The position numbers and the translations under genes were made by a program. This document shows, one piece after another, positions 14,471 to 20,181 of a stretch of DNA of 64,000 nucleotides (positions within the stretch are counted from its first letter, which is position 1; each line of letters opens with the position of its first letter). Location: assembly GCF_001418685.1 (NCBI RefSeq), contig NZ_LIVM01000005.1, positions 62,001 through 126,000 of the forward strand. Direction: 5' to 3'. The DNA comes from Apibacter mensalis. Its GTDB lineage: Bacteria; Bacteroidota; Bacteroidia; Flavobacteriales; Weeksellaceae. The notes beneath the pieces are model-generated. The model was given only the letters and a program-made list of their open reading frames with translations, ran no database searches and had not been told where the DNA came from.

Positions 14471-15532
14471 TTAAGGGCTGGTTGCAGGCTTTAATTCTGA
14501 GTCATAAATTTCCACTTTTGTATTAAAATATTTCGATTTAAGAATTTTACCCTTATCTGTAATAATAAGACAACTATAATTCGGATATTGATTTATTAGT
14601 CTAAATCCTGCTTTAACTCCTAATACCATTATTGATGTACTGAATCCGTTTGCCGTTTCAGCATTGGGTCCTATCACACTAACACTCTTAATCCCTTTGA
14701 CCGGATAGCCGGTGCGAGGATTGATAATATGAGAATATTTTTTACCTCCGAGTTCCACATATTTTTCATAAGAACCGGATGTAGTGACACTTACATCCTT
14801 AAGTGTAAAAGCTCCTATAATATCAGTGGGTTCAAAGGGATTTACTATTCCTATTTTCCAATCCTCTCCATTGTTTTTATTGCCCCAAACACTTATGTCT
14901 CCTGATGCATTGATAATTCCCGCTTTGACATGATTTCTCACCATTTTTTCTTTTGCTTTATCAGCTGCATACCCTTTCCCTATGGATCCAAAACCAATTT
15001 TCATTCCGGGTATTTTTAAAAAAATGGTAGAATGTAAAGTATCCAATATAATATTTTTATATCCTATTTTTTTAATGGATTCTTTGATTTGATCGGCAGA
15101 GGGTACTTTCTTCATAGATCCGTCAAATTTCCAAATTTTATCCACGGCGGCAAAACTTATATCAAATGCACCTTCGGTCATCTCCGAAATTTTAATAGCT
15201 CTCCGGGTAAGTTCCCATACTTCCCGATTTACTTTAACCGGTTGTATACCGGCATTTAGATTAACTTTTGATACTTGTGAATCGGGCTTCCAATCCGATA
15301 TTAAATTTTCAATACGAACTATTTCATCTATAGCTTTGTCTATATATTTTTCTGCCAATAAGGAATCTTCGGCTATAATTGAAAAATCAAATCTACACCC
15401 CATTAACGTTGCAGTACGGTTTCTTTGAACCTGTGCTTTACTGTTTATAAAAGATAGAATAAAAATGGCTGATAATAGTATTATTTTCCAATTCTTTTTT
15501 TTATTATTTATAATGAAATTCATCAATAACAA
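14471..15532 (-). CDS. apbE: ApbE, FAD:protein FMN transferase
   Basis: Enzyme that moves FMN from FAD to a Ser/Thr of exported target proteins through a phosphoester bond. An N-terminal hydrophobic signal (about 16-33, ending KAQ) sends it outside the cytoplasm. Core motifs are GCRFDFSIIAED, the substrate-site segment GAFDISFAAVDKIW, FGSIGKGYAADKAK, INASGDISVWG and HIINPRTGYPVKGIKSVSV, where His/Asn/Pro/Arg-Thr-Gly is the hallmark. The length of 353 residues is normal. It is the last gene of the operon and overlaps the PepSY-flavodoxin reductase by 10 bases. The DUF2271 protein two genes upstream carries its target motif. Confidence 0.93.
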   Translation of the reverse strand: MLLMNFIINNKKKNWKIILLSAIFILSFINSKAQVQRNRTATLMGCRFDFSIIAEDSLLAEKYIDKAIDEIVRIENLISDWKPDSQVSKVNLNAGIQPVKVNREVWELTRRAIKISEMTEGAFDISFAAVDKIWKFDGSMKKVPSADQIKESIKKIGYKNIILDTLHSTIFLKIPGMKIGFGSIGKGYAADKAKEKMVRNHVKAGIINASGDISVWGNKNNGEDWKIGIVNPFEPTDIIGAFTLKDVSVTTSGSYEKYVELGGKKYSHIINPRTGYPVKGIKSVSVIGPNAETANGFSTSIMVLGVKAGFRLINQYPNYSCLIITDKGKILKSKYFNTKVEIYDSELKPATSP

Positions 15533-17721
15533 TCTATTAAAATTTGTCTATTCTTTTTATAATCAATACATTTTTTTAGGCTATTTTCAAAAACTATTTC
15601 ATCTAGAACTTTTTCTACACTCATCTGCATCCGCAATGCTCCACAAATCATTATTACTCCTCCTTCTTCAAGCAAATGAACCAAAAAATCCTTATCTTTT
15701 TGCAGTAAATTCATCACATATTTATTTTCTGAATCTAATGAAAAAGAAAAATTATATCGTTCTAAATTTCCCTTATTAATTTGTTCTTCTAAAAAACTTC
15801 TATACCTATCGACAATTTCACTTCGTTGTCTGAATCCGCAATAAAGATAAGTCTTTATCTTTTTTAAATTTTGATCCATCATTCCTAAAAAAGGACCTAT
15901 CCCTGTTCCATTTGCAATCATTACTACTTTATTGGCTTTATCGGGGAAATGAAAAGAAGTATTATTTATTATCTTTCCATAAATATAATCACCTTTATTC
16001 CGATTGATTAAATATTCTGATGCTAATCCGGATGGATAGTATTTAATTGATATTTGTATTTGGTGATTAACTTTAGCTATGGAATAATATCTTTCATTGG
16101 GAGCTTTATATGGATAAACAGCTAAGATATCACCTGAAGTAAAGCTTTTTTTACCGGGATTTATTTTTATTATAAAGGTTTCTTTGGTATCTTTAGGAAT
16201 GTAAACCTCCTCTATCTTCATTTTTATAACGTTCTCAGGTCTACTTCTATAAAATTTAGATTCTGCATATAGTTTTATACCGGTTTTATTATTCCATTTT
16301 TTTATCCATTCTACAAATTCCTCAATAGATTTATTGTTAACAGTATGCAAATCAAGAATCGATTCACTCCATGGCTCCATTTTAATTTGTTTATCTATAT
16401 TTTCTGCAAACAGACAAAAATCGTCATAAGATTTAGAACCAAATCCTAATACACTACACTTAATGGAATGGTTTTGGGGATTTTTTCTAACAAGGGTTTC
16501 GAATTTTCGGGCATTGGAAGGAGCTTCTCCCATTCCATAGGTAGAGGTTAGAACAAGCATATATTCAGCTTTCGGAAATACTTGGTACTTATTGAGCTCT
16601 GTTAGATAGGAAAGATAATTTTGCGAAATCAATTGTTGGTGTATAGCATGGGCAAAGTTGAATGTACTGCCATTCTCTGACCCTACCAGAATAATAATTC
16701 TACTTTCTGAAGGGCTATATTTATTTTTTAGACGATGATTTCCCCTTTTCCATGTTATAGTAAATCCTGATTCTATAAAAAATAATATATACAAGCAGGA
16801 AATAAAAAGAATGACAGCCCAAATCACATGTGTTCTGCCTGTGTGAAGATCTAAACTTATAGTTGCTAACCTTTTAGAAATGGGATAATTTAATTGCGAA
16901 ATGATTGCACCTGTCAAAGGACTTACTGTTAATTCTTTATCCTTTAATTTTACAATAAAATATTCGTCCGGATCATCAGAAAATGGAAATTCTATTTTGC
17001 GTACTTCTGAAAGCTTAATTTGAGAAAAAATAGGAATGTCTTTATATGATAGTACTTTGTTTGAACTATCGAATGAATCGGAATAATTAATAATTTTCTG
17101 TGCATTTTTAGAAAAAAAATTGAACCTTTCCATACACAGATAACTTCCGGTTATAGAAATTATGCTAATAGGTATTAGCATGAATCGTCCAAATAGGGTA
17201 TGATAATATTGTGAAAAAGTAATTCCCTTTATTTTTGAAAAAAAGTTCCAGAATTTTTTTTGTCTTTTTAGTACAAGTATTCCTCCGGATATTGCTATCA
17301 AGAAAAGTAAAAATGAATTGATACCGACAAGTATTCGCCCGGTTTCGTGCAAAAACAAAGATCTATGTAAGGAAGTTACCCACTGGATTAAAGGGGGGGC
17401 TATTTGAAGCTTACCTAATATATCTCCAGTTTTCGGATTTATATACCCTTTTACCTCCTCCCCGTTTCTATCAATTCCTTGTAATTTTACATAAGATTTT
17501 TCATTGATTTCCAATTCAGAAATTTCCTGAATCTTAGATTGCAATACAGAAAGTGTTTGTGCAATACTAATACGATTTAAATCATGAATACAATACGGAG
17601 ATGTATTATCCTTAATTGTATAAAAAGCTAGTATGGATCCCGTTATGGAAGCCATACTTAAAAATATAAAAGATAGTAATGCTAAAGTTAAATGAGCATA
17701 TCTCCAAATGGAAAGAGTCAT
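15523..17721 (-). CDS. PepSY membrane flavoreductase (PepSY-TM, flavodoxin, FAD/NAD(P)H reductase fusion)
   Basis: A 732-residue fusion that can carry electrons from cytosolic NAD(P)H across the inner membrane. Residues 1 to about 330 are a PepSY-associated transmembrane module with four helices and two external PepSY segments; conserved His lie near the helices (HRSLFLHETGR, LDLHTGRTHV). Residues about 340-490 are a flavodoxin domain with an FMN phosphate loop (GSENGSTFNFA) and LTSTYGMGEAPSNA. Residues about 505-732 are a ferredoxin-reductase-like part with an RYYSIA flavin motif and a GTGIGPFLGMM nucleotide loop. It lies 4 bases after the DUF2271 gene and overlaps apbE. In Bacteroidetes such proteins are linked to iron-chelate reduction or periplasmic flavin redox chains. 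Confidence 0.88.
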   Translation of the reverse strand: MTLSIWRYAHLTLALLSFIFLSMASITGSILAFYTIKDNTSPYCIHDLNRISIAQTLSVLQSKIQEISELEINEKSYVKLQGIDRNGEEVKGYINPKTGDILGKLQIAPPLIQWVTSLHRSLFLHETGRILVGINSFLLFLIAISGGILVLKRQKKFWNFFSKIKGITFSQYYHTLFGRFMLIPISIISITGSYLCMERFNFFSKNAQKIINYSDSFDSSNKVLSYKDIPIFSQIKLSEVRKIEFPFSDDPDEYFIVKLKDKELTVSPLTGAIISQLNYPISKRLATISLDLHTGRTHVIWAVILFISCLYILFFIESGFTITWKRGNHRLKNKYSPSESRIIILVGSENGSTFNFAHAIHQQLISQNYLSYLTELNKYQVFPKAEYMLVLTSTYGMGEAPSNARKFETLVRKNPQNHSIKCSVLGFGSKSYDDFCLFAENIDKQIKMEPWSESILDLHTVNNKSIEEFVEWIKKWNNKTGIKLYAESKFYRSRPENVIKMKIEEVYIPKDTKETFIIKINPGKKSFTSGDILAVYPYKAPNERYYSIAKVNHQIQISIKYYPSGLASEYLINRNKGDYIYGKIINNTSFHFPDKANKVVMIANGTGIGPFLGMMDQNLKKIKTYLYCGFRQRSEIVDRYRSFLEEQINKGNLERYNFSFSLDSENKYVMNLLQKDKDFLVHLLEEGGVIMICGALRMQMSVEKVLDEIVFENSLKKCIDYKKNRQILIDCY

Positions 17722-17725
17722 TGAA

Positions 17726-18208
17726 TTATTGAATCTTACTTAGTCTCACATAATTAATATATCCCGTTCCGGATATTTTACCCGAAAATGCTTGAGAAGT
17801 TAAAGGAATTTCCAGATCTTTTACATAATAATTTTGATCTTCAACGGCGGTTTCAAAACGGAGTTTATATCCTTTATCTATTTTTGAATCTTCAATTTCT
17901 AATGTAGTTATACTTCGATCTCCGCCTGTAACGGATGCTCCTGTTTTAGCGTCTATATTTTTCTTTTTTGAATAATATTTATGCCATTCTTTCAACGTAT
18001 TATACCATCTTTTATCTTCTCCCATAATGTATAAAGTTTTTTCATATTGACCCTGAGGAGAAATTAACGATACTACTATATAGGCGCCTTCTCCTATATA
18101 ATTATTCATTTGAAGCAAACATTTATACTTATGAGTCTGTGCATTGCCCATAAAAGGCATCAATATAAGAATTAAAATGTAAGCTACTAATTTACTATTT
18201 ATCTTCAT
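17726..18208 (-). CDS. DUF2271 periplasmic protein with an ApbE flavinylation motif
   Basis: A 160-residue exported protein with signal peptide 1 to about 23 (MGNAQ cleavage region) and a compact all-beta DUF2271 domain. Residues 86-94 read D-A-K-T-G-A-S-V-T, which matches the D-x-x-(S/T)-G-A-(S/T)-x-(S/T) motif where ApbE attaches FMN in NqrC, RnfG and related proteins. Ser92 would be the acceptor by alignment with the SGAT threonine. ApbE is encoded two genes downstream and a membrane flavoreductase between them, so this protein is probably the periplasmic flavin carrier of the system. The domain is known; its flavinylation here is inferred. Confidence 0.82.
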   Translation of the reverse strand: MKINSKLVAYILILILMPFMGNAQTHKYKCLLQMNNYIGEGAYIVVSLISPQGQYEKTLYIMGEDKRWYNTLKEWHKYYSKKKNIDAKTGASVTGGDRSITTLEIEDSKIDKGYKLRFETAVEDQNYYVKDLEIPLTSQAFSGKISGTGYINYVRLSKIQ

Positions 18209-18214
18209 TACAAT

Positions 18215-19684
18215 TTATTTTAAAAAATCAACGAATACTTTATTATGAGTTAAAACTTTGTTTTCTTTTGCTAAGTCATAGGCGGTTTCTCCAAATTCAG
18301 TTTTTATATCTTTCTTAGCTCCTAAAGATAGTAGATATTTTAAAATAGCATCATCTTTAGCTATCATAGCTGCTCTTTGTAAGGGAGTTATGCCCTCATT
18401 ATTAGCTGTATTTACATCTACATTAAGTTGTGAAATTTTTTTTATCAAATTTATATCATTTTTAACTACCGCCAAATGATAAATGGTATTACCATCTTCT
18501 TGTTTTGCTCCAAAATTTACTCCATTTTCTTTTAACAATTTTAAATTTGCATCAAAATCTTCATTTCTTGGATGATAAGATTGCATGAGATAATATACCA
18601 AACTGTTTCCTTTATTATCTTTTTGGTTGATACTTGCTCCATTTTTAAGCAATACAGCTATCATCTCGGGGGTACTGGATTTTACCGCCAGCATTAATGC
18701 AGTTTCTCCTTTATTATTAGAATCATTAATATTCTTAACCAGAGGTAATAAAACTTGTGCATTTTTCACATCTTTTCCTGAAGCACTATTTATAAATGCA
18801 GTATTTCCATCTTTATCTTTTTTTTGTGGATTAACGTTTTTAGTAATAAAATAGTTAATAATTTCTGCCTGATTGGGTTTAGTTGCTACTATGTGAAGTA
18901 CAGTTTGTTCATTGTTATTGATTACTAATGGATTTAATTGTATATTATCTATCAAATATTTATAAATATCTATTGTATTGGCTGTTCTCCGCGTAGCTTC
19001 AGCAGCGATAAAAAGAGCATTGTCAGTACTTTCAACTCCTCTTCCTTTCAATTTTTGTAATAATTCAATATTACCATTTCTTGCAGCATAATCAAATGCG
19101 GTATAACCTTTATCGTCAGTATCAGCTAAAGAAAGTCCTCTGGATTGCAAATAATCCGTAAGATGAAGATCGGAATCATAAGGTATAGCCAAAAGTAATA
19201 GGGTCGTTCCGTTTTTATATTTTTGTTTAGGATTTAAACCCGCATCAAAAAACAATCGATATATTTCCACGTTGGTTTGTCCGGAATTTGCCGCAAACAC
19301 TAATGGAGTTAATCCATGGGAATCTTCTAGATGTATGTCACTTTTTTTATCAATTAAAAACTTGATTAATTCCGTATTTCCTTTGAAAGCGGCCCAATGT
19401 AAATAAATTCTATTATCATGAGTTAATTTATTTATATCATTACCTTTTTGTTTTAACAGGTATTTAATTGTTTCTAAAGGAGCATCATTTAATATGGCAA
19501 CCGTAACAGCATCAAATTTATTATCATTAAATTCTATTGCACTATTACCTTTTTTAATTTCAGATTCAACTACTTGTATATCGGGTTTATTTTTCCAAAA
19601 GTTATTATCTAACAGTTTATTATTAATTTGAGCATTCATCCAAATAGATGTCATGCAAATTAAAGTTACAAAACTTCTTTTCAT
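18215..19684 (-). CDS. exported ankyrin-repeat protein
   Basis: A 489-residue protein with signal peptide (1 to about 18, WMNAQ) followed by roughly a dozen ankyrin repeats. Typical units are NRIYLHWAAFKGNTELIKFL, HGLTPLVFAANSGQT and GETALMLAVKSSTPEMIAVL. Ankyrin stacks bind other proteins, and this one would act in the periplasm. It is the first gene of the operon, 6 bases before the DUF2271 gene, so it probably belongs to the same flavin-transfer or metal-reduction system as a scaffold or partner. Its start is preceded by an unusual tandem repeat of ATG-containing octamers (separate entry); 19684 is the only one of these ATGs that opens the long frame. Confidence 0.88.
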   Translation of the reverse strand: MKRSFVTLICMTSIWMNAQINNKLLDNNFWKNKPDIQVVESEIKKGNSAIEFNDNKFDAVTVAILNDAPLETIKYLLKQKGNDINKLTHDNRIYLHWAAFKGNTELIKFLIDKKSDIHLEDSHGLTPLVFAANSGQTNVEIYRLFFDAGLNPKQKYKNGTTLLLLAIPYDSDLHLTDYLQSRGLSLADTDDKGYTAFDYAARNGNIELLQKLKGRGVESTDNALFIAAEATRRTANTIDIYKYLIDNIQLNPLVINNNEQTVLHIVATKPNQAEIINYFITKNVNPQKKDKDGNTAFINSASGKDVKNAQVLLPLVKNINDSNNKGETALMLAVKSSTPEMIAVLLKNGASINQKDNKGNSLVYYLMQSYHPRNEDFDANLKLLKENGVNFGAKQEDGNTIYHLAVVKNDINLIKKISQLNVDVNTANNEGITPLQRAAMIAKDDAILKYLLSLGAKKDIKTEFGETAYDLAKENKVLTHNKVFVDFLK

Positions 19685-19712: not shown

Positions 19713-19842
19713 TTTATAAAAGTACTAATAATACTAGGATTTTTTTGCAATAATATTTATATAGACTAAATAAAGACAAAATAGTTTAAAGCAGTCGATA
19801 ATTTCAACTGTATTTATAAAAAATTTATTTAAATAAAATTAT

Positions 19843-20004
19843 TTAATTTTTAAAGAAAGAAACTGCTCTACTATGTTTTTTAGTATTAAAAAGCTCAAAT
19901 CCTTTTTTAGCTGTAGCTGTTACCGGATCAATCACATATATTGTTGAATTTTCGGTTAGCAGATTTAAACTTATACATAATGTACCATCCTTAATTATGT
20001 TATA
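19843..20004 (-). pseudogene. 3' remnant of a gene (propeller-type, possibly DUF4374)
   Basis: Minus-strand open segment of about 54 codons with no start. It reads in part KDGTLCISLNLLTENSTIYV and then IDPVTATAKKGFELFN, ending SFFKN-stop. The alternating strand pattern and YVIDPVTATAKKG look like the last blades of a beta-propeller of the YncE/DUF4374 kind. Such genes often accompany PepSY and TonB-receptor genes in Bacteroidetes iron loci. Only the C-terminal end is left, and it meets the AraC remnant head-on. The family call is tentative; that it is a relic is more secure. Confidence 0.5.
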
Positions 20005-20181
20005 GAACTACGCAGGAAATATGTTCCCAAAAAGTTATATAATAAATATTCTATAAACGAAATAGCTTTAACTGAAAGTTATACAAGCACTTCTTATTTT
20101 ATAACAATCTTCAAAAAATTATTTGATAAAACACCCAAACAGCATATCATGGATGAACTACCTTTGATTTTAAACTTATAA
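20005..20181 (+). pseudogene. remnant of an AraC-family regulator (C-terminal HTH)
   Basis: Plus-strand open segment of 58 codons without a start. It contains VPKKLYNKYSINEIALTESY and then TSTSYFITIFKKLFDKTPKQ, the second helix-turn-helix of AraC-type regulators (IAxxxGYxSxSYFxxxFKKxxGxTPxQ), and runs to a normal stop. The first HTH and the effector domain are gone. It starts exactly where the oppositely oriented remnant ends, which suggests that one deletion removed the middle of both genes. It probably once regulated the neighbouring redox operon or a lost uptake gene. Confidence 0.75.

Follow-up and report, generated by a model that had tools for sequence, protein, structure and literature searches.

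An exported ankyrin-repeat protein as a near-constant neighbour of a likely flavinylated electron-transfer operon in Bacteroidota, seen from Apibacter mensalis

What an exported ankyrin-repeat protein is doing at the head of an electron-transfer operon is the question raised by a locus of Apibacter mensalis (assembly GCF_001418685.1, contig NZ_LIVM01000005.1, positions 62,001 to 126,000 of the forward strand). This stretch of 64,000 nucleotides is referred to below as the window, and positions are counted from its first letter. On its minus strand, from 19684 to 14471, lies a tight operon of four genes which encode, in order, the ankyrin protein (gene ank, product Ank), a DUF2271 protein, a fusion of PepSY, flavodoxin and reductase domains, and ApbE. 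We judge it likely that the operon represents, in a form of the Bacteroidota, the flavinylated electron-transfer systems built on PepSY, DUF2271 and ApbE, that it reduces iron, and that Ank is included in it. The flavinylated DUF2271 carrier with its ApbE is a known class, in print before, and is the ordinary core of this interpretation. The near-constant ankyrin partner in Bacteroidota is real and, apparently, undescribed.

The identities of the genes, all on the minus strand, follow from profile matches. The 489-residue product of ank (18215..19684) is a solenoid matching Pfam Ank_2 (E 8.6e-45), with an N-terminal signal peptide by inspection. The DUF2271 protein (17726..18208, 160 residues) matches PF10029 with E 7.8e-37 and 126.5 bits, against a curated cut-off of 27.3. 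The 732-residue fusion protein (15523..17721) combines PepSY_TM (PF03929, E 4.4e-32) with Flavodoxin_1 and NAD_binding_1 domains and carries a reductase of the flavin adenine dinucleotide (FAD)/reduced nicotinamide adenine dinucleotide (phosphate) (NAD(P)H) type; for this part, matches in the PDB are to cytochrome P450 reductase and to the alpha chains of sulfite reductase (CysJ-type). The product of apbE (14471..15523), an FAD:protein flavin mononucleotide (FMN) transferase exported by inspection, matches PF02424 (E 2.1e-81) and solved ApbE structures, best 7esa (E 7.5e-50). Gaps of 6 and 4 base pairs separate ank from the DUF2271 gene and the latter from the PepSY gene; the stop and start of the PepSY gene and apbE overlap as TGATG if the apbE ATG at 15523 is used, the list of open reading frames (ORFs) giving a TTG at 15532. 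With a PF03929 protein in a flavinylation-associated cluster, the operon falls within the definition of PepSY-like flavinylated systems.

The first-pass annotation of this DNA had placed ApbE in one operon with the DUF2271 gene and the PepSY fusion between them, and had read residues 86-94 of the DUF2271 protein, DAKTGASVT, as the ApbE target motif of a flavinylated carrier. ORFs and Pfam matches bear out the first point, and the sequence confirms the second: the motif is encoded at 17927..17953, its acceptor Ser92 at 17933-17935 (both minus strand), and TGAS at residues 89-92 satisfies the [S/T]GA[S/T] pattern of ApbE substrates. Among 20,000 shuffled versions of the protein, [ST]GA[ST] recurred in 0.9% and the full D..[ST]GA[ST].[ST] in none. 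The genome encodes a single ApbE, and searches of it for FMN_bind, NqrB/RnfD and DUF3570 found none, so that DUF2271 is the only ApbE substrate of these known types. Such flavinylation has a precedent in Méheust et al. 2021, where co-expression of a DUF2271 protein with its cognate ApbE led to flavinylation, which a Thr-to-Ala change abolished (PMC8238504). That known class, and a motif kept beside apbE, strongly support the carrier assignment, and we predict flavinylation of the window protein at Ser92 with high confidence. Since flavinylation of DUF2271 and its links to iron reduction are already in print (PMC8238504, PMC11870441), the carrier claim is not new in kind and its power to surprise is limited. 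The AlphaFold2 model of the DUF2271 protein is a beta-sandwich with a mean predicted local distance difference test score (pLDDT) of 75.8, and the motif sits where confidence is low (pLDDT below 50 for residues 83-95). The fold was rejected as a clue to function: with a best Foldseek E of 0.009 and a best VIA Z of 7.6 (root-mean-square deviation 3.4 over 106 residues, to a C2 domain), the matches may reflect just the common beta-sandwich arrangement, and no function was derived from them. A PDB search with its sequence gave a single chance-level match (E 0.59).

How general the arrangement is was gauged from both ends of the ank-DUF2271 pair. In a PF10029 profile search, the family was present in 32 of the 296 genomes from the order, in 31 of 395 from the class and in 6 of 9 from the genus; the other three congeners, one of them 83% complete, are also without ApbE. 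Of 60 loci collected, 13 had no DUF2271 blast match, being distant or fused, while 47, with the window, make up 48 loci from several families carrying a stand-alone DUF2271 gene recognisable by the window protein. In 46 of these 48, ank lies directly upstream of the DUF2271 gene on the same strand, the exceptions being L110 and L085, the latter holding the second DUF2271 gene of genome G133. The PepSY gene lies directly downstream, likewise in 46; in L065 a 228-residue ORF is called between. From the ankyrin side, an alignment search gave at least 594 confirmed relatives, and the best 80 were examined; because these are mostly from Flavobacterium, they understate the diversity. Flavobacterium johnsoniae (L152) is one relative in which the operon is present. 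The DUF2271 gene directly follows ank in 79 of them, and in L195 the contig ends at ank. Among the 79, the PepSY gene comes next in 78 (not in L154) and apbE farther on in 77, L171 having apbE on the other strand and L125 ending inside the PepSY gene. The acceptor motif shares this constancy. Its conservation with and without an apbE neighbour had been proposed at the outset as a check, and TGAS is present in all 29 DUF2271 proteins with apbE within the stretch (opposite strand in L096, L098, L100 and L104), so that the refuting case named there, loss of the motif beside apbE, did not arise; behind ank, by alignment position, TGAS occurs in 72 and SGAS in 7 of the 79, and the acceptor Ser/Thr is retained in 48/48 DUF2271 proteins.

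The ankyrin protein itself is distinctive. Conservation was assessed on 45 full-length proteins, 26 of which entered alignment A1 (alignments A2 and A3, of 30 and 26 sequences including the window, came from the 80 loci); a 127-residue fragment in L066 was left out, as was L106, a copy with ank split over three ORFs and a short PepSY gene, which points to a broken frame or to poor assembly. The invariant residues of the family, among them a K.THD.R stretch at 86-92, deviate from the generic ankyrin consensus. AlphaFold2 models the protein with confidence as a solenoid (mean pLDDT 91.7), residues 1-19 alone scoring low, and the matches listed in a fold search were ankyrin-repeat proteins and designed ankyrin repeat proteins (DARPins). 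Our literature search found no paper joining ankyrin with DUF2271, with siderophore and PepSY, or with Flavobacterium, PepSY and iron; the two papers containing both ankyrin and ApbE are a catalogue of hypothetical proteins of Treponema and the correction to that catalogue. The suggestion in the first-pass annotation that Ank is a new partner of such systems thus holds as regards a conserved neighbour for which no description was found, while physical partnership is putative. From the linkage we consider it very likely that Ank is part of the same machine. When all plasmids were searched with Ank by tblastn, 8 records gave a match, including a 219-kb plasmid of Spirosoma oryzicola (L199) with an ank-DUF2271-PepSY operon and a TonB receptor gene and apbE nearby. 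We further observed, in L068, L075, L078, L081, L082, L084 and 29 of the 80 ankyrin-centred loci, that the gene preceding ank on the other strand encodes the small subunit of ribonucleotide reductase, and we noted two tandem ank genes behind a DUF4374 gene on the short contig of L195.

The PepSY protein would give the chain its membrane step. His10, His119, His174 and His293 are invariant in 46/46 Bacteroidota homologues, and also in 26/26 rows of a further alignment with five proteins from proteobacteria among them, with which the reductase motifs are shared too. Given these four invariant histidines, membrane hemes are probably part of the electron chain. The chain as initially drawn, from NAD(P)H over FAD, FMN and a membrane PepSY protein to a periplasmic FMN-protein, lacks these probable hemes. 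We envisage that exported ApbE would put FMN on Ser92 of a periplasmic DUF2271 protein; that the membrane protein would draw electrons from NAD(P)H via FAD and the flavodoxin FMN in its cytosolic reductase domain; and that these would cross the inner membrane over histidine-bound hemes to the covalent FMN of DUF2271. The DUF2271 flavin would then reduce periplasmic ferric iron or ferric siderophores, leading to Fe(II) import. Of the roles open to Ank, the likeliest would be to dock DUF2271 onto either the PepSY protein or siderophore receptors, and to such a scaffold we give somewhat less than an even chance. Gene content, acceptor motif, invariant histidines and linkage are direct findings from sequence; flavinylation of this protein, heme binding, iron as the acceptor and the scaffold role of Ank are inferences.

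The main rival to a scaffold role is that Ank serves the PepSY cytochrome as an assembly or heme-delivery factor. Periplasmic ankyrins have been tied to catalase and heme, as with Pseudomonas AnkB and Campylobacter Cj1386, and the PepSY protein has four invariant histidines. However, Ank showed no heme-ligand motif, and none of five proteobacterial clusters with the same fusion (described below) shows an ankyrin gene in the stretch, which indicates that heme insertion does not in general depend on an ankyrin. We consider this alternative unlikely.

That the electrons reach iron, which we regard as probable, is suggested by the neighbourhood and by upstream sites. DUF4374 is the family of XusB, a surface lipoprotein that binds ferric siderophores and whose system includes a PepSY reductase, XusC (PMC13142918). 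DUF4374 or the related f5 lipoprotein (hhalign probability 98%) is encoded near 13 of the 48 DUF2271 loci and 25 of the 80 ankyrin-centred loci; within the 48, DUF6607 is nearby in 7, an AraC regulator in 8, and a TonB receptor in the stretch in 23, a raw count. Upstream of ank, the motif found in relatives matches the Fur box known from Riemerella anatipestifer, ATTTAGAATTATTCTAAAT; at promoters with this box, an electrophoretic mobility shift assay supports Fur binding (PMC5609570). Matches of at least 15/19 within 150 base pairs upstream of ank occur in 93/120 loci, compared with 18/360 shuffles and 34/729 other ORFs, and in 23/45 when the ankyrin-centred loci are set aside (the window being among the 45). 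These counts are not independent, because the sequences share ancestry and some genomes are present in both locus sets; L125, L170, L179, L194 and L195 were omitted from the 80, and for the other 75 the upstream stretch was measured from where the match begins, not from a verified start codon. In Caulobacter, a PepSY/DUF2271/DUF4198 operon is described as upregulated in mutants defective in iron homeostasis, and insertions in it as lowering fitness with ethylenediaminetetraacetic acid (EDTA) (PMC11870441).

Several observations weigh against the proposed iron-reducing system. The window and four sister loci have Fur-box matches of 13-14/19, at chance level (P 0.21-0.78), and the window counts among the 23 loci with a TonB receptor solely through an unrelated one about 5 kb away. 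TonB receptors are common in Bacteroidota, and 22/48 loci have no TonB receptor, XusB-like gene or DUF6607 in the stretch. In L154 (Flavobacterium bizetiae), a second ank-DUF2271 pair without PepSY stands behind a DUF2271-PepSY-ApbE set that TonB and f5 genes accompany. FoxB, the Pseudomonas aeruginosa PepSY protein, was absent among the 60 matches listed of 184 in a PepSY profile search. The window genome has lost its siderophore module and has no DUF4374 over threshold, and pairwise dN/dS, given below, is blind to whether selection lasted beyond that deletion. Individually, the best Fur-box candidate of the window, at 13/19 (P 0.78), was rejected as not above chance and does not place the operon in a Fur regulon.

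A target other than iron, such as copper, another metal or a periplasmic enzyme, would suit the loci with no iron-uptake-type neighbour among those tracked and the chance-level site in the window, as it would the heavy-metal P-type ATPases beside two of the five proteobacterial clusters and the two-component regulator genes near all five. Fur-box-like sites before ank in several families, the XusA/XusB-like neighbours and the published iron links (PMC8238504, PMC11870441) speak against such a target, which we find improbable.

The history of the window upstream of ank raises a further alternative. In sister loci L091-L093 the order is a divergent AraC gene, a TonB receptor gene, two DUF4374 genes and the ank operon. 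In the window there remain a C-terminal stub of a gene for a DUF4374 (XusB-like) lipoprotein (19846..19989, minus strand; tblastn 62% identity over 47 residues to DUF4374 of L092, E 9e-13) and a C-terminal stub of an AraC-type regulator gene (19981..20163, plus strand; 57% identity over 61 residues to AraC of L091, E 2e-17). The stubs abut as a deletion scar, with some 5.7 kb missing by coordinate arithmetic relative to L092. A DUF4374 match is present in each of the five remaining congeners that carry the operon, that of G680 being short and on another contig. With the receptor and lipoprotein module deleted, a reductase still in use must be working on some other source of iron. The operon could instead be a relic on its way out, a reading in keeping with the stubs, the absence of any DUF4374 over threshold, the three congeners without the system and the lack of an above-chance Fur box. 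Nevertheless, all four reading frames are intact, with omega 0.09-0.16 against the nearest species (L092), and the spacer upstream of ank keeps a genus-conserved stretch, TTTATTTAGTCTATATAAA (19756..19774, minus strand), found by alignment with L090-L094 and kept in all but L094. This stretch lies about as far from ank as the Fur-box-like site of relatives does and would be, at best, a degenerate operator or promoter. Decay of the operon is, in our estimation, also unlikely. Lastly, although co-transcription by itself is no proof of shared function, the linkage of ank across several families, from the DUF2271 side and, among the best 80 of at least 594 ankyrin relatives, in every locus with room for it, together with its family-specific invariant residues, leaves a bystander carried by linkage so improbable that we rejected it.

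Beyond the apbE-linked loci, the family appears to divide in two. Nineteen DUF2271 loci have no apbE nearby; 13 fit the motif, as [TS]GAT in 12 and TGAS in one (L110), while in six (L062, L069, L085, L088, L097 and L109) TGA[ST] is replaced by TGET, VGET, TGST or TGPT with the acceptor Thr kept, possibly marking unflavinylated carriers or a relaxed ApbE. All 18 genomes of these loci encode ApbE elsewhere, and 17 of the 18 encode FMN_bind proteins, against 0/29 genomes with a nearby apbE; by length, the FMN_bind proteins are probably NqrC. On a tree of PepSY proteins from 46 of the 48 loci (L085 and L106, with no PepSY protein over 650 residues, were omitted), 29 rows combine apbE, Ser and no FMN_bind, 16 combine no apbE, Thr and FMN_bind, and one has no apbE, Ser and no FMN_bind. 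We rejected this near-perfect association as repeated independent evidence: each trait switches once, and with one independent pair only it amounts to a single event. The split is a natural experiment on the matching of ApbE and substrate. It forms part of a wider and tentative proposal, a flavinylated iron reductase of the Bacteroidota's own in which periplasmic Ank might hold the FMN carrier between an inner-membrane cytochrome and outer-membrane XusA/XusB, under Fur control. In it, one lineage would have its own apbE, a Ser acceptor and genomes without FMN_bind, and the other no adjacent apbE, a Thr acceptor, FMN_bind proteins and apbE elsewhere, with six loci whose motif would be ill suited to ApbE. 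More distant forms were also seen. ApbE-DUF2271 fusion proteins of 503-548 residues stand beside a gene for about 220 residues with a likely membrane part (L101, L102, L103, L105, L107); four are without any [ST]GA[ST]-like site, and the one in L102 carries TGAT at residue 430, within the DUF2271 part at its C-terminus. A DUF2271-like group of 262-290 residues (L112-L118) keeps [TS]GAT, with apbE nearby in L112-L117.

Comparison with known systems separates what is shared from what the Bacteroidota may have added. PepSY-like flavinylated systems, as described in PMC8238504, share PepSY_TM, a DUF2271 protein with [S/T]GA[S/T], ApbE and, in part, a NAD-binding domain; DUF2271 is reported in 2833/3220 such clusters and iron reduction is proposed. 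Their extra gene is DUF4198 (1500/3220 clusters), whereas the window operon is headed by an ankyrin solenoid, and the word ankyrin does not occur in the main text of that paper.

Clusters on proteobacterial plasmids (Shinella, Cupriavidus, Klebsiella, Roseovarius and Rhizobium) are alike in gene order, with DUF2271 followed by a PepSY-reductase of about 735 residues and apbE next in four of the five. Upstream they have a small PepSY protein (directly so in 3/5; PepSY_2 in the four checked) rather than an ankyrin, for which the annotation gives 0/5, its gene table being incomplete. One of them, on a Klebsiella oxytoca plasmid typed as conjugative (L202), has DUF2271-PepSY but lacks apbE within the stretch; its neighbours encode a VIT1/CCC1 transporter and a ferric-reductase-like protein. 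FoxB (7ABW), in which two heme sites have been described alongside a DUF2271 model (PMC11334425), is alike in a PepSY membrane core expected to bind hemes through histidines. The window protein adds a fused flavodoxin and reductase and a predicted flavinylated partner, and homology between the two is putative.

The XusABC system of Bacteroides places a PepSY inner-membrane reductase, XusC, beside the TonB receptor XusA and the DUF4374 lipoprotein XusB (PMC13142918). Sister loci L090-L093 resemble it, with a TonB receptor gene and two DUF4374 genes upstream of ank, while in the window the counterparts of XusA and XusB beside the PepSY gene are deleted. Unlike the window operon, XusABC is described with no flavinylated carrier, ApbE or ankyrin, neither "flavin" nor "ankyrin" occurring in the accessible text of that account. 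XusC is proposed for periplasmic ferric-siderophore reduction in Bacteroidota, and for the passage of electrons from membrane to siderophore a near-constant ankyrin subunit, absent from the published accounts that were found, is a testable candidate for the organising piece.

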